The notes under the pieces: model-generated
Databases searched by the model: none
Seen by the model: the letters and a program-made list of their open reading frames with translations, nothing else
What the model was told of the DNA's origin: nothing
Shown: piece by piece, positions 1 through 42,103 of the stretch
Layout of the letters: each line of letters opens with the position of its first letter
Position numbering within the stretch: the stretch's first letter is position 1
Source of the DNA: Bacteroidales bacterium
GTDB lineage: Bacteria > Bacteroidota > Bacteroidia > Bacteroidales > FEN-979
DNA length: 48,027 nt
Assembly: GCA_016783905.1 (NCBI GenBank)
Contig: JADHVQ010000007.1
Location: 1 to 48,027 of the forward strand
Direction: 5' to 3'
Translations under genes and position numbers: made by a program

Positions 1-1991
1 TTGTCGATGATCCGCTGAAGCTCCTTTTTCGACCGGTATTTACCGCTCATGGCACGGCGGATCACATCCGATTCGCTCAGGTCGAGGCCGGCAAAATGGT
101 GGCAGATCTTAAGCACATCTTCCTGGTAGACCATCACACCGTAAGTCTCCTTCAACTGCTCTTCCATCACCGGATGGAGGTAGTTGAACTTTCCGGGATG
201 GTGGAAACGGTAGATATACTCCTTCATCATCCCTGAACGGGCTACCCCCGGCCGTACAATCGAACTGGCTGCCACAAGGGTACGGTAATCGTCGCACCGG
301 AGCTTTTTCAGCAGTCCGCGCATGGCAGGACTCTCCACATAGAAACAGCCGATGGTACGGGCTGATTGCAACAGCCTCTTCACCTCCGGATCCTCTTTGA
401 ACTGCTTCACCTGATGCACATCCACACTAACGTTGCGGTTCCGTTTCACGATTTCAGCTGTTTCAAAGATATGGCCGATCCCTCGCTGACTCAGGATATC
501 GAGTTTCTCAAAGCCGATATCTTCCGCCACGTACATATCCCACTGGGTAGTGGGAAACCCTTTTGGTGGCAAGTCCAATGCCGTATAACATGTAATCGGT
601 TGCTCAGAGATGAGCACCCCGCCGGCGTGGATGCTGCGGATGTTTGGAAAATCGACCATCATCTCCCCTATCCGGCTGATCTTTTCGATGATGCCGCTAC
701 GGTTGACCGCCTCTTCGGGATGCTTCAGAAATGCATCCATCTCCCCTTTTGGCAACCCATGAACCTTGCCCAGTTCCCGGTAGATGGAGTTTCCCTTGAA
801 TGTCGACATGGCTCCAAGCAGGGCCGTATGCTCATGCCCATATCGTTTAAAAATGTAGTCCAGCACCTCATCCCTATCCTTCCAGGAGTAATCGATGTCA
901 AAATCGGGAGGGGACGTGCGTTTGGGGTTGATGAACCGCTCGAAGTAGAGATCGAGTTCAATGGGATCCACATTGGTGATCTTCAGGCAATAGGCTACGA
1001 TGCTGTTAGCTCCGCTGCCGCGCCCCACATGGTAAAAACCGCGTGCCATGGAGTAGCGGATGACATCCCAGGCGATGAGGAAATAGGCGGCAAATCCCAT
1101 CTTGCAGATGATATCGATCTCGTGCCGGATCCGGTTGCGGGCTTCCACGTTGTTTTTCCCATAGCGGTAATCCAGCCCGTCGAGGGCAAGCTTCTCCAGC
1201 AACACCTGGTCATCGTATACATCTCCCGTGAAGGTTCGTTTGTTCTTACACTCCCGGAAATCGAAATCGATGCTGCAGGCTTCGATCAGCTTCTCCGTGT
1301 TCCGGATGATCTCCGGGTATTCCTGAAAAGGCTCAAGCAGCTCATCGAGTGGGTGCATCACCTCATCAGGAGATGCCAGTTGGTGCGGTTCCAACCGGGT
1401 GAGCAGGATGTTGTGATCGATCGCCCGGAGGTTGCTGTGCAGCTCCCATGTTTGCTCGTCAGCGACCGTGACCGGCGCCATGATGACCATGTGGTCGAGC
1501 AGGGGACGGTGGCGGGAGAGGATGATGGGGTTGACGTCGGAGGGGCGGAGGCCGATAAACGAAGGATGAATTTCACTATTTTGCATTGCAGACTGCGGAC
1601 TGCGGACTGCAGACTGGAATGGATACACCACCGCCACATCATTGAACTCCGGCGCTTTGTCAGGTAACGGTTGATACCGCAACGTGTGATAGGTCAGGAA
1701 TTCGTTCAGCTCGCGGAAGCCGTCGTTGTTTTTAGCCAGCCCGACGTAGAGCAGCTGATCCTCCCGGCGAAACTCAATTCCGGCAATGGGTTTTATGCCT
1801 TTCTCTTTGCAGGCTGCCACAAAATCCATGATCCCCGTGGAGTTGTTGATGTCGGTCATGGCCAGTGCCGGAGGGGCGATCCGGTGGGTCGCCCCAGCAA
1901 GATTGTACACATGAACCGCCTGTTCTACCAATTTTTCGATGGAAAGTGTGCCGTAGCGGAGGGAGTAATATGAGTGACAGTTTAAGTACAT
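1..1991 (-). CDS. dnaE: DNA polymerase III alpha subunit-like protein (DnaE/ImuC-type, short Bacteroidota form), partial; 3' end lies beyond the window
   Basis: Manual minus-strand translation from ATG at 1991 is open to position 1: MYLNCHSYYSLRYGTLSIEKLVEQA...FYHVGRGSGANSIVAYC...SPPDFDIDYSWKDRDEV...LSESDVIRRAMSGKYRSKKELQ. Not in the ORF track because the stop is outside the window. ATG overlaps the dinB stop. Confidence 0.93.
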   Translation of the reverse strand, partial: MYLNCHSYYSLRYGTLSIEKLVEQAVHVYNLAGATHRIAPPALAMTDINNSTGIMDFVAACKEKGIKPIAGIEFRREDQLLYVGLAKNNDGFRELNEFLTYHTLRYQPLPDKAPEFNDVAVVYPFQSAVRSPQSAMQNSEIHPSFIGLRPSDVNPIILSRHRPLLDHMVIMAPVTVADEQTWELHSNLRAIDHNILLTRLEPHQLASPDEVMHPLDELLEPFQEYPEIIRNTEKLIEACSIDFDFRECKNKRTFTGDVYDDQVLLEKLALDGLDYRYGKNNVEARNRIRHEIDIICKMGFAAYFLIAWDVIRYSMARGFYHVGRGSGANSIVAYCLKITNVDPIELDLYFERFINPKRTSPPDFDIDYSWKDRDEVLDYIFKRYGHEHTALLGAMSTFKGNSIYRELGKVHGLPKGEMDAFLKHPEEAVNRSGIIEKISRIGEMMVDFPNIRSIHAGGVLISEQPITCYTALDLPPKGFPTTQWDMYVAEDIGFEKLDILSQRGIGHIFETAEIVKRNRNVSVDVHQVKQFKEDPEVKRLLQSARTIGCFYVESPAMRGLLKKLRCDDYRTLVAASSIVRPGVARSGMMKEYIYRFHHPGKFNYLHPVMEEQLKETYGVMVYQEDVLKICHHFAGLDLSESDVIRRAMSGKYRSKKELQRIID
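1588..1615. repeat. heptanucleotide tandem array GCAGACT-GCGGACT-GCGGACT-GCAGACT inside dnaE
   Basis: Four 7-nt units read directly; encodes QSAVRSPQSA on the minus strand. Confidence 0.95.
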
Positions 1992-3199
1992 GTTGTTTCG
2001 CTTTTCGCTTTTCGCTTTTCGCTTTTCGCTACCTCGCTTCTTTCCACGGCAATCCCTCTTCTCACACTCTTCCTTCCATATTTGTCACGAATCCGGTCCA
2101 CTGCCTGATAGAGGTTGATCATCTCCGTGCTGTCTTCGAACATATCCAACTGCGGAGTGCCGGTGATAAGGCTGCTGAAGCGGACGCCGATCAGGCGAAT
2201 CAGCATGCGGCGCTGGTAAAGCCGGTCGAAGAGCTCTTTCACCACCGGAATCAGCACGTGATCGAACGCGGTATAGGGCACCTGTTTCTGCAATGTATGG
2301 GTATCGAAGTTCGAGTAGCGGATCTTCACCGTGATGCAGGAGGTGAGCTTCTGCTTATCCCGCAACTCATAGGATATCTTCTCCACCATCTTTACCAGGA
2401 TCTCCTTCATCCGCACGATATCGATGCTGTCCTGGTCAAAGGTACTCTCGGTGCTCACTGATTTGGCTTCGTGGTAGGGATGGACGGCCGTGTGGTCGAT
2501 GCCGTTAGCCCTTTCCCAGATCACGATCCCGTTTTTCCCCATCACCCGCTGCATCATCTCTACCGGCATCTGGCTGAGGGTATCGATGGTGACGATGCCC
2601 ATTGAACGCAGCAACCGGTAAGTCTTCTCCCCGATCATCGGGATCTTGCGGATTGAAAGGGGCGACAGAAACGGTTTCACGGCATCCTGCTGCACAAAAA
2701 GCTCTCCGTTTGGCTTCGCTTCACCGGTAGCGATCTTCGAAACCGTTTTGTTAACAGAAAGCCCGAATGAGATCGGTAAGCCGGTATGCCTGATGATCGC
2801 CTGCCTCAGCTCCTGCGTCCATTGCAGCAACCCAAAAAAACGGTCCATCCCCGTTACGTCGATGTAGTGTTCGTCGATGGAAGCCTTCTCGTACAAAGGC
2901 GATCGCTCCGCAATAATATCTGTCACCGTATGCGAATAGTTCGAATAGAGCTCCATGTCGCCCCGGATAAAAACAGCATCCCGGCAAAGGAGACGTGCCA
3001 TCTTCATCGGCATGGCAGAATGAACGCCAAACTTCCTCGCCTCATAACTGCAACTGGCTACCACTCCCCGGTCAGACATGCCGCCGATGATCACCGGTTT
3101 CCCCTCCAGTTCGGTGTTGACCAACCGCTCCACCGATACGAAGAAGGTGTCGAGGTCGAGGTGAACGATGTTGCGGGTATTTGATTTATTTCTAATCAT
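1982..3199 (-). CDS. dinB: DNA polymerase IV (Y-family, DinB/ImuB-like)
   Basis: VHLDLDTFFVSVERL, GVVASCSYEARKFGVHSAMP, KASIDEHYIDVTGMDRFF, SVNKTVSKIATGEAKPNG; repeat-encoded C-terminal tail AKSEKRKAKSE. Confidence 0.95.
   Translation of the reverse strand: MIRNKSNTRNIVHLDLDTFFVSVERLVNTELEGKPVIIGGMSDRGVVASCSYEARKFGVHSAMPMKMARLLCRDAVFIRGDMELYSNYSHTVTDIIAERSPLYEKASIDEHYIDVTGMDRFFGLLQWTQELRQAIIRHTGLPISFGLSVNKTVSKIATGEAKPNGELFVQQDAVKPFLSPLSIRKIPMIGEKTYRLLRSMGIVTIDTLSQMPVEMMQRVMGKNGIVIWERANGIDHTAVHPYHEAKSVSTESTFDQDSIDIVRMKEILVKMVEKISYELRDKQKLTSCITVKIRYSNFDTHTLQKQVPYTAFDHVLIPVVKELFDRLYQRRMLIRLIGVRFSSLITGTPQLDMFEDSTEMINLYQAVDRIRDKYGRKSVRRGIAVERSEVAKSEKRKAKSETTCT
1999..2040. repeat. heptanucleotide array (CGCTTTT)x4 plus degenerate CGCTACC-TCGCTTC, encoding the DinB C-terminal tail
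   Basis: Four perfect units 1999-2026; encodes SEVAKSEKRKAKSE. Confidence 0.95.
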
Positions 3200-7322: not shown

Positions 7323-7359
7323 TGAGGTGACGAAGTGATGAGGTAAAATTGAGCAAATT

Positions 7360-7387
7360 GCGGACTGCGGACTGCGGACTGCGGACT
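7360..7387. repeat. heptanucleotide array (GCGGACT)x4
   Basis: Four perfect units between rfbD and the phosphoglucomutase gene. Confidence 0.95.
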
Positions 7388-21063: not shown

Positions 21064-21137
21064 ATTGATTCGATTTTCGATTTGCCCCCCAACCCCCTAA
21101 AGGGGGAGTAAGTCCCCTTCAGGCGATTTAGGTGTGC
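21064..21137. repeat. composite repeat: CGATTTT heptads + GC-rich hairpin CCCCCTAAAGGGGG + AGTAAGTCCCCTTCAGGCGATTTAGGTGTG
   Basis: Shares its GC-rich half and heptad family with 41101-41210. Confidence 0.75.
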
Positions 21138-21140
21138 TTC

Positions 21141-21389
21141 CTAATGCTCTTCACTTTCAAACAACTGCAACTGATTCACTTTCTCATTGTTCATATTGAC
21201 TTCCAGGTCAGCATAGTTCTCAAATAGCGGGCGGATTGCTTTTTTGATGAGTTTATTTGTCGTGGTACGCCTGGATTTTGCAAAGCGTTCGAGGGAACGT
21301 TTTTGGCGGGTGGTCAGTTTGATGGTAAGGCTCTTGTACCGGATGGATTTACCTCTTTTTTTAGCTCTGGTTCGTGGCATGCCGGTCAC
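21141..21389 (-). CDS. small basic RHH-like hypothetical protein
   Basis: Arg/Lys-rich 82-aa ORF overlapping the glmM stop by 4 nt; LTIKLTTRQKRSLERFAKSRRTTTNKLIKKAI resembles ribbon-helix-helix. Confidence 0.6.
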   Translation of the reverse strand: MTGMPRTRAKKRGKSIRYKSLTIKLTTRQKRSLERFAKSRRTTTNKLIKKAIRPLFENYADLEVNMNNEKVNQLQLFESEEH

Positions 21390-22783
21390 TCTCCGTTGAT
21401 GATCTCTTTGAAATCGTTAAGGATTTTCCGGGCGAGGTGATCAGCCTTTTCAGGCATATCGCTCTCCGCATAGATCCGGATGATCGGTTCGGTATTGGAT
21501 TTCCGGAGATGGACCCAGGATTTTTCGAAGTGGATCTTCACCCCATCTATCCGGCTGATATCATAATCCTTATACCGTTCTTCAATCTTTTTCAAGATTT
21601 CATCCAACACTATTTCAGGTCCGAATGCTATTTTGTTTTTTGAAATGAAATAGCTCGGGTACTCAGCTCTTAGCGTCGAACAGGTTTTCCCTGATTTTGC
21701 CAGGTAAGTAAGGAATAATGCGATTCCCACCAGGGCATCGCGGCCATAGTGCAGGTCTGGGCAAATCACCCCGCCGTTGCCTTCTCCTCCAATCACAGCT
21801 TTTTTCGCCTTCATCATCTCTACCACATTGACCTCCCCAACAGCAGAGGCAAAATAGTGCCCACCTGCTTTTTCAGTAATGTCTTTCAGAGCTTGGGAAG
21901 AGGAGAGGTTAGACACCGTGTTCCCAGGCTTATGCTGAAGGACATAATCGGCAATGGCAACCAGGGTATACTCCTCCCCGAACGGCTCCCCGATCTCGTT
22001 GATGATAGCCAGACGGTCTACATCCGGATCAACAACAAACCCTACATCGGCTTTCTGCCTGACCACCTCTTCACAGATAGCCGACAGATGTTCGGGTAGA
22101 GGTTCCGGATTATGAGGAAATTGTCCTGTTGGATCACAATATAACCGATGGATGGTATTGACACCCAATACCTCCAGTAATAAGGGAATGGCGATCCCTC
22201 CGGTGGAATTCACAGCATCCACTACCACACTGAAGTGGGCATTTTTGATGGCATCGGGATCTACCAATGGAATATCCAGAATGCGGTTGATGTGCTTTAG
22301 AAGATATCGTTCGCTGGAGCTGTAAATCCCAAGGTTATCGACATCCACGTAGGAACAATCCCCCTGTTCAACAATCTTCATCAGCTCCGCTTCATCCCTG
22401 GCCGAAAGAAATTCCCCCTGTTGGTTCAGCAACTTCAGGGCATTCCATTGTTTGGGATTATGGCTGGCTGTAATGATGATTCCTCCGTCGGAATCACTCT
22501 CTGTAACAGCTACCTCAACCGTTGGAGTAGTGGTGAGACCAATATCCAGCACATCAATACCCATTCCGATGAGGGTCCCGCATACCAGGTTGCTGACCAT
22601 AGCTCCCGATATCCGGGCATCCCGGCCGACAACCACCTGCAGTTTTTTATCCGGAATCTTTGCCTTAATGAAACAACCGTAAGCACTAATATATTTAACG
22701 ATATCTGGTGGAGTCAGTCCCTCATCCGGCTTCCCTCCAATTGTTCCACGAATACCTGAAATCGATTTAATCAGTGTCATCAC
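21386..22783 (-). CDS. glmM: phosphoglucosamine mutase-type phosphohexomutase
   Basis: SISGIRGTIGG; GGIIITASHNPKQWNALK; FVVDPDVDRLAIINEIGEPFGEEYTL; RKSNTEPIIRIYAE. Confidence 0.93.
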   Translation of the reverse strand: MMTLIKSISGIRGTIGGKPDEGLTPPDIVKYISAYGCFIKAKIPDKKLQVVVGRDARISGAMVSNLVCGTLIGMGIDVLDIGLTTTPTVEVAVTESDSDGGIIITASHNPKQWNALKLLNQQGEFLSARDEAELMKIVEQGDCSYVDVDNLGIYSSSERYLLKHINRILDIPLVDPDAIKNAHFSVVVDAVNSTGGIAIPLLLEVLGVNTIHRLYCDPTGQFPHNPEPLPEHLSAICEEVVRQKADVGFVVDPDVDRLAIINEIGEPFGEEYTLVAIADYVLQHKPGNTVSNLSSSQALKDITEKAGGHYFASAVGEVNVVEMMKAKKAVIGGEGNGGVICPDLHYGRDALVGIALFLTYLAKSGKTCSTLRAEYPSYFISKNKIAFGPEIVLDEILKKIEERYKDYDISRIDGVKIHFEKSWVHLRKSNTEPIIRIYAESDMPEKADHLARKILNDFKEIINGE

Positions 22784-22916
22784 ACAGATTTTAAAACAAA
22801 TGTAAAGGATTTTTTACGGCATCCTCCGTGATGTTGAAAACTATTGAAATCTTGCGTTCCGAGACAAATGGAGCAGAAATCTGGGATTTTATTAATTTTG
22901 CAATGGAAAGTACGTT

Positions 22917-25090: not shown

Positions 25091-25103
25091 ATGCTGGTAT
25101 CGT

Positions 25104-25198
25104 GTTTCGGGTTTCGGGTTTCGGGTTCCTCTTCCCTCTTCCTTCCTCCTTCGTCCCTCATTCTTCCTCCTTCGTCCCTCGTCCTTCGTCATTTCGTA
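25104..25198. repeat. multi-family heptanucleotide tract: GTTTCGG x3, then TTCCTCC-TTCGTCC-CTCATTC-TTCCTCC-TTCGTCC-CTCGTCC-TTCGTCA
   Basis: 7-nt spacing with a 21-nt higher-order repeat; a short out-of-phase stretch lies between the two blocks. Confidence 0.85.
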
Positions 25199-40696: not shown

Positions 40697-40753
40697 GACA
40701 GTTCTCTATATATATGACAAAAGTAGAAATTTTTTATGAAAATTTATCTTCCG

Positions 40754-40765: not shown

Positions 40766-42103
40766 ATGAAGCCGCCTACTATTGCCTTTCACCACTTTGG
40801 TTGCAAAGTAAATTTTGCAGAGGCCTCCTCCCTGTCGAGGCAGTTCTCCGAGAAAGGTTACCAACTGTCCGGATTTCATGAAAAAGCAGATATCTATGTG
40901 ATTAGCAGCTGTGTGGTAACAGCCACTGCGGAGAAGAAGTGCCGTGCTGCCATCAAGCAGGTTCATAACCTGAATCCGGATGCCAGGATCGCTGTCATCG
41001 GCTGTTTCCCGGAACTAAAACACAATGAGGTTGCTGAGATGGATGGAGTAGACGTGGTGCTGGGACATAACGAGAAGTTTAACCTGCTGGAGGAGATAGA
41101 GGGTGGATACCCCTCCCCCGGCCCCTCCCCAACAAGGGAGGGGAGTAAGCCCCCTTCAGGGGGTTTGGGTGTGCCATCGAAAATCGAAAATCGAAAATCG
41201 AAAATCGAATTCATCCCCTCCTACTCATTTGGAGACCGAACCCGCTCCTTCCTGAAGATCCAGGATGGATGCGATTACCACTGCTCCTACTGTGCCATCC
41301 CTCTGGCTCGTGGGAAAAGCCGTAGCGATACCATTGCCCATATTATGACTGCAGCGCGCGAGATTATCGCTTTGGGGGGTAAAGAGATTGTATTAACGGG
41401 AGTCAATATCGGGGATTTCGGGAAACATAACGGTGAGACCTTTTTCCAGTTAATCTCCTTGATGGAAGAGGAGATCCCAATACCACGGATACGGATCTCA
41501 TCTATTGAACCGGACCTGTTGTATGACGACATCATTGACCTGGTGGCATCCTCGAAGAAAATCCTTCCCCACTTCCATATCCCATTGCAATCGGGATCTG
41601 ACAAGGTTCTCCGGACGATGAAAAGGAAATACAAGAAACCACTTTATGCCGAACGGGTGAATAAAATCATAGAGCTCCTCCCCTATGCCTGCATCGCAGC
41701 TGATGTGATCGTAGGATTTCCTGGAGAGAGTGAAGAAGATTTCCTGGGAACGGTTGCATTTCTTGAGGATCTCCCGATCTCCTATATGCATGTCTTCTCT
41801 TACAGTAGGCGGGAAAATACATTGGCGGCAAGGTCGGCTAAAGATATTCCAAAAGCAGAAAAGAAGCGTCGTAGCGAAGAGTTACACCAACTCTCCGACA
41901 AGAAAAAAATAGCATTTTATAAGTCCAACCGGGGGCGAAAAGCGAATGTGCTGTTTGAGTCGGATAATAAAGAGGGCATGATGCACGGCTTCACGGAGAA
42001 CTACATCAAAGTGAAAACACCATATGATGCAACCCTTGTCAATGAGATCAGGACCGTAAGGCTGGAGGAGCTGGATGAGGATATGACGTATGTGGTGAGG
42101 TAG
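40766..42103 (+). CDS. mtaB: tRNA t6A37 methylthiotransferase-like protein (MtaB), with repeat-derived in-frame insertion
   Basis: AFHHFGCKVNFAEASSLSRQF; CDYHCSYCAIPLARGKSRS; insertion YPSPGPSPTREGSKPPSGGLGVPSKIENRKSKIE before FIPSYSFGDRTRSFLKIQDGC. Confidence 0.92.
   Translation: MKPPTIAFHHFGCKVNFAEASSLSRQFSEKGYQLSGFHEKADIYVISSCVVTATAEKKCRAAIKQVHNLNPDARIAVIGCFPELKHNEVAEMDGVDVVLGHNEKFNLLEEIEGGYPSPGPSPTREGSKPPSGGLGVPSKIENRKSKIEFIPSYSFGDRTRSFLKIQDGCDYHCSYCAIPLARGKSRSDTIAHIMTAAREIIALGGKEIVLTGVNIGDFGKHNGETFFQLISLMEEEIPIPRIRISSIEPDLLYDDIIDLVASSKKILPHFHIPLQSGSDKVLRTMKRKYKKPLYAERVNKIIELLPYACIAADVIVGFPGESEEDFLGTVAFLEDLPISYMHVFSYSRRENTLAARSAKDIPKAEKKRRSEELHQLSDKKKIAFYKSNRGRKANVLFESDNKEGMMHGFTENYIKVKTPYDATLVNEIRTVRLEELDEDMTYVVR
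41101..41210. repeat. composite GC-rich hairpin repeat + (ATCGAAA)x4-ATCGAAT, inserted in frame in mtaB
   Basis: Heptads at 41176-41210; GC-rich part 41110-41173 related to 21086-21137. Confidence 0.92.

Follow-up and report, generated by a model that had tools for sequence, protein, structure and literature searches.

An in-frame palindromic element and heptad array in mtaB of a Bacteroidales bacterium, with DUF559 nuclease genes as candidate partners

The repeat insert in the MtaB linker

In this Bacteroidales bacterium, the mtaB gene carries a stretch made up entirely of DNA repeats, which would add a peptide, GGYPSPGPSPTREGSKPPSGGLGVPSKIENRKSKIE, in the linker that joins the N-terminal and radical-SAM domains of the enzyme. 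What are these repeats, and how did they come to lie in frame there? In the window (the whole 48,027-nucleotide stretch of contig JADHVQ010000007.1 that was analysed), mtaB occupies positions 40766..42103 of the + strand, with an alternative upstream ATG possible at 40736. Its product is assigned as tRNA t6A37 methylthiotransferase by the TIGR01579 equivalog model (398 bits versus a cut-off of 357), and mtaB homologues are found in 61 of 61 relatives. Two repeats code for the linker, a GC-rich double hairpin at 41109-41172 and, directly 3' of it, an ATCGAAA array at 41176-41209; both are in frame and stop-free. An earlier sequence-only reading had described positions 41101-41210 as a GC-rich hairpin followed by ATCGAAA heptads, and TRF and RNA folding bear this out. 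Its view of an in-frame repeat insert that codes for the whole linker peptide and is apparently tolerated also stands, with the ORF open across the insert and the CDYHCSYC motif intact.

The palindromic element (41109..41172, + strand, ~64 bp), which has ACCCC...GGGTGT ends, would be translated as YPSPGPSPTREGSKPPSGGLGV and contains two inner hairpins in the RNA fold, the left one, CCCCTCCC-CAACAA-GGGAGGGG, at 41122..41143 and the right one, AAGCCCCC-TTCA-GGGGGTTT, at 41147..41166 (both + strand). These are enclosed by an outer stem of 41107-41112 with 41167-41172, in which ATACCC pairs with GGGTGT. The array that follows (41176..41209, + strand) consists of 4.9 copies of ATCGAAA with a 100% match in TRF and would be read as SKIENRKSKIE. 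Because the folding energy of the element is not unusual for its composition (RNA z -1.0), the evidence that it is an element is its dispersal rather than its folding.

Alignment of MtaB orthologues confirms the insert but not its reported size of about 33 added residues. Measured from anchor to anchor, the linker is 44 residues long here, compared with 20-65 (median 28) among 30 members of the family; it is 38-49 residues long in three congeners and 29.5 in other families. Since the linker varies naturally, we put the net gain of MtaB at about 16 residues. Nor does the insert lie in a conserved part of the enzyme, because this linker is hypervariable in all MtaB orthologues; judging from the alignment, the repeats have extended a region whose length and sequence vary naturally. 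The linkers of distant orthologues are unrelated to it in sequence, and the same linker was not found among them without the nucleotide repeat.

In all 5 of 5 congeners the linker site is repeat-derived, and each one is different. The linker of G004 contains the same hairpin element as the one described here (two G004 contigs end inside it), and in G001, G002, G003 and G005 the site is filled by heptads with different units (CCGGCAT, GGTCGAG, ATCCAG-type and AGCATCG). By this comparison, the mtaB linker site is a permissive loop that has been hit repeatedly.

Dispersal of the element and insertion within conserved genes

The genome that carries the window is a draft of metagenome type (128 contigs, 89% complete). 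A repeat-containing query gave 45 matches in it at E<=0.001. A pattern for the right end of the element matched 30 times in this genome, 147 times in G003, 81 times in G004 and 13-14 times in each of the other three congeners, and the reversed pattern, used as a control, gave 0 matches. Recurrence on this scale is far beyond chance. In G003, right ends are often paired in inverted orientation at a spacing of 63 bp, giving a BIME-like RE-RE unit. The window itself has a second, partial copy (21093..21137, + strand, by BLAST), which is intergenic and has a phosphoglucomutase gene (21389-22813) as its neighbour. The terminal inverted repeats are perfect in the copy in MurG (ACCCCT...AGGGGT) and imperfect in the mtaB copy.

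About 38 element loci could be placed on the genome, and 14 of the 38 fall within long ORFs that extend at least 40 residues to either side, although the way these 14 were recognised, as lying in an open frame, accounts in part for their being in frame. We rejected an estimate that ~80% of copies are in genes (15/19, ORFs >=90 aa), which is biased to the most similar copies. In the right-end pattern sample, which comes mostly from relatives, copies are largely outside long ORFs. Besides mtaB, the interrupted genes include those for QueE, NadE, KsgA, MurG, HemW, an amino-acid permease, glycosyltransferases, M14 and C10 peptidases, a cysteine desulfurase-SelD fusion, a RapZ-C/kinase protein and an amine oxidoreductase; in congeners, they include ValS (L092) and a pyruvate-formate-lyase-like enzyme (L072).

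Two of the six frames of the element are closed, and in different proteins it is read in several of the others. This bears on whether the enzyme has co-opted its linker peptide for some function. The element is at the same place in mtaB in this genome and in G004, as co-option would predict. However, we consider co-option very improbable, since other proteins use several different frames of this element, the linker differs in sequence and length in every congener and in the family, and the element sits in a variable part of MtaB.

Three Pfam domains span an insert: RrnaAD of KsgA (276 aa for 231 model positions), Glyco_tran_28_C of MurG (166 aa for 151 model positions) and Radical_SAM of HemW (205 aa for 161 model positions). 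In alignments with PDB structures, the KsgA insert is 55 residues, compared with 5 in 3TQS, and lies just N-terminal of the GNFPYN motif; the MurG insert has ~17 extra residues; and an insert in AroA, which is made of heptads, is 70 residues, compared with 8 in 3NVS. From these models and alignments, insertion within folded domains is plain.

Congeners also show what these sites look like without the element. In G004, the nearest congener, the MurG site is empty, and in G003 and G005 heptads occupy exactly the same loop as the element does here. Compared with the empty site, the MurG copy replaces ~14 nt rather than forming a clean duplication. KsgA has the element and heptads in G004 and heptads only in G001, and AroA shows a congener pattern of the same kind. 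The draft contigs of G002, G003 and G004 break inside the mtaB and KsgA inserts, and gene predictions at those contig ends are likely truncated. No transposition or excision event was seen.

GC-rich hairpins can stall or redirect ribosomes, as in the mitochondrial byp elements and T4 gene 60, and the inserts occupy genes that are usually essential, such as those for MurG and NadE. Both points would fit an insert that is never translated, being either removed from the mRNA or skipped by ribosomes, so that the protein is normal. Against this, the in-gene copies are in frame and stop-free, although two of the six frames are closed and only one in three lengths keeps the frame. Among the 7 non-ORF copies checked, no gene is split by the element; these copies lie between different genes or at gene ends. 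Moreover, at the same sites in congeners there are heptads, not hairpins. Removal or bypass of the insert is thus hardly credible, and we take the inserts to be translated.

Heptad arrays at the same loops

Arrays of period 7 are by far the most frequent, with 26 in 288 kb, compared with 11 of period 8 and 0-3 of most other periods. They have many unrelated unit sequences, and any stop-free heptad reads as a 7-residue repeat in any frame. Heptads interrupt the genes for AroA, MurF and HutI. With a relaxed threshold for calling arrays, they adjoin 9 of the 14 in-gene element copies, compared with 4% of random positions; with a stricter one, they adjoin 5 of the 14, compared with 3.4%. The insert in mtaB had been called a composite repeat, which is right in that the hairpin and the heptads adjoin, but they are two separate kinds of repeat that share permissive sites. 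In congeners, heptads occur at mtaB, MurG, KsgA and AroA where the element is absent, so the heptads probably came first, or else both use the same permissive loops independently. At mtaB, heptads before the element is the probable order because all congeners have heptads there.

Elsewhere in the window, TTTCGCT is repeated five times at 1996-2030, just upstream of the likely start of the ORF at 3-2084 (- strand), which, from its sequence, we take to be DnaE-like and which contains a short heptad peptide, QSAVRSPQSAMQNSE. Further arrays outside mtaB have GGTTTCG, TCCCTCG and TGCGGAC units (25096-25190 and 7359-7387). An 8-bp array (GGGGCACA-type, AQGHRGTE peptide) lies beside the element in KsgA (L112:5530-5580). 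Like the cyanobacterial STRR heptamers and the TAACTGA repeats of Beggiatoaceae, Cyanobacteria and Bacteroidetes (PMC4679880), the arrays described here are dispersed 7-bp direct repeats; in contrast to the TAACTGA type, they have many unrelated units and are often in coding sequence.

DUF559 genes bracketed by hairpins

In genomes of the genus, genes for DUF559 (PF04480) are bracketed by GC-rich hairpins. We scanned for DUF559 loci in named genomes, mainly of Bacteroidota but also of Cyanobacteria, Proteobacteria, Ignavibacteria and Aminicenantes, using a narrowed alignment because the broader one was too diverse for a collection scan. Inverted flank repeats (score of at least 30) are present at 40 of 72 evaluable DUF559 loci, compared with 0 of 143 shifted positions and 10.7% of swapped flanks; for direct flank repeats, the values are 23 of 72, 5 of 143 and 7.1%. 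Among relatives, bracketing is found at 8 of 10 DUF559 genes, 7 of 26 Y1_Tnp genes, 4 of 24 GIY-YIG genes and 0 of 24 mtaB genes. A count of solo hairpins against the hairpin beside the local DUF559 gene gave 14 of 17 versus 19 of 44 genomes (Fisher p 0.009, uncorrected for phylogeny). Dispersal is weak in Planktothrix, where just 4 matches to the hairpin beside DUF559 were found and three of these lie close to the gene itself. At L068, L121 and L200, the DUF559 flanks carry ~4 to 7 tandem partial hairpin copies, as if added stepwise.

A direct link joins these flanks to the element: its MurG copy is made up of the hairpin upstream of the G001 DUF559 gene (29/30 nt) and the hairpin at the G002 DUF559 gene (32/35 nt), with the gene absent. 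The element therefore resembles a DUF559 unit that has its two ends but not the gene. In the mtaB copy, the left hairpin resembles both flanks of the G005 DUF559 gene (82-90% over 28-40 nt), and the right hairpin resembles the one upstream of the G001 DUF559 gene (82% over 34 nt). The DUF559 gene of this genome is flanked by a different hairpin, absent elsewhere in the 288-kb sample, and in G004 (95% complete) no DUF559 was found despite its 81 right ends; for these two reasons, DUF559 is at most a candidate for acting on the mtaB copy. No target-site duplication was evident around the DUF559 units.

The DUF559 protein has a predicted structure (AF2 pLDDT 83.7) whose best PDB match is 3HRL, from its own family, followed by 3R3P, the catalytic domain of the homing endonuclease I-Bth0305I. 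Together with the invariant acidic and histidine residues (E35, D64, E75, H81 and D90 in alignment A3), this argues for a PD-(D/E)XK/Vsr-like fold with catalytic-type residues.

The same observations could be accounted for if RPE-like palindromes had been dispersed in some other way (by RAYT, a different transposase, replication slippage or gene conversion) and DUF559 had homed into the hairpins. That the two halves of a DUF559 locus form the solo element reads the same whether DUF559 was inserted into an element or the element is a deletion derivative; G004 carries the element without DUF559, and after its own family the DUF559 fold is closest to that of a homing endonuclease. On the other side, RAYT (Y1_Tnp) gave 0 matches in G001, G002, G004 and this genome (G000, 89% complete), that is, in 4 of the 6 genomes of the genus, and we rejected it as the driver. 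The association of hairpins with DUF559 also recurs in many phyla with different hairpin sequences. We regard spread by another route as rather unlikely, though a serious alternative, and favour DUF559 as a candidate partner; from sequence comparison, its role here is that of an association.

Proposed origin and relation to known systems

We think it probable, though not strongly so, that the mtaB insert arose when two repeats, selfish or neutral, landed in an interdomain linker that tolerates them, and that its hairpin part is non-autonomous, DUF559-linked and translated. The hairpin part would be one copy of a ~64-bp MITE/REP-like element with two inverted hairpin ends; ends of the same class bracket a small gene for a DUF559 nuclease (Vsr-like, with a homing-endonuclease fold). 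This nuclease may cut at or near the hairpins, with repair or copying then seeding new copies. Within genes, a copy would persist only if it leaves the frame open and falls in a tolerant surface loop, and would then be translated as linker peptide. Slippage at this loop would have built up the ATCGAAA array, probably ahead of the element's arrival. The sequence comparisons show the dispersal of the element, its in-frame insertion within domains, an empty congener site, repeated occupation of the same loops and the bracketing of DUF559; translation of the peptide, mobility, the part played by DUF559 and the order of events are inferred from them.

Among known systems, the nearest are the Rickettsia palindromic elements (RPEs), which, as summarized in PMC10969869 from Ogata et al. 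(2000, 2002), are ~150 bp long and lie in ORFs in nearly half of the cases. Like RPEs as portrayed there, the element described here is a dispersed palindrome that lies in frame in unrelated conserved genes (here 14/38), with a stop-free frame and in a protein-compatible manner. It differs in its phylum, in its length (~64 versus ~150 bp) and in having heptads alongside, and the likeness to the RPEs of PMC10969869 is one of features, not of sequence. There is a candidate partner nuclease here, whereas none is named for RPEs in the parts of PMC10969869 that we drew on.

REP/RAYT REPtrons (PMC3733652) likewise have short GC-rich hairpins, solo or in inverted pairs, that bracket a small nuclease/transposase gene, with some in ORFs. 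Unlike in REPtrons, however, the bracketed gene is DUF559, of PD-(D/E)XK type, and not an HUH tyrosine transposase (PMC3733652). At the foot of the hairpins, neither a GTAG nor a CGTC tag is present in 12 of 13 copies, and the one GTAG/CTAC is in flanking sequence; membership in the GTAG/CGTC REPs was rejected since the tags are absent from the copies and RAYT is absent from 4 of the 6 genomes. The element is like MITEs in sharing its ends with a gene-bearing unit (the MurG copy) and in its terminal inverted repeats. As for DUF559 itself, Caulobacter VsrA is Vsr-like and has been discussed as a repair nuclease (PMC12907096), and DUF559 segments are recombination hotspots in Legionella (PMC12308824). 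Among open-licence papers, we found none linking DUF559 to palindromic repeats or repeat mobility, which is weak evidence.

The finding is genuine and larger than first noted: conserved genes of this genus carry both an RPE-like in-frame element and heptad arrays, and DUF559 is a candidate partner. Palindromes inserted in frame are familiar above all from Rickettsia, and this genus would be a second case. The repeats explain odd low-complexity peptides in predicted proteins (PSPGPSP..GEGSKPPSGG, IENRKSK and IQHPASS). With empty sites, repeated hits at the same loops in sister species and a candidate enzyme, the movement of protein-coding palindromes becomes testable, and DUF559, a little-studied and widespread family, gains a concrete hypothesis. 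We hold it quite possible, if somewhat doubtful, that a class of mobile elements found across bacteria has so far gone unrecognised, in which a Vsr/homing-type nuclease gene lies between inverted hairpins, solo hairpin copies are shed and the DUF559 protein is the mobilising enzyme. If this is true, the solo copies would be scattered over genomes, and in this genus they would also have entered protein-coding genes, where they are translated.
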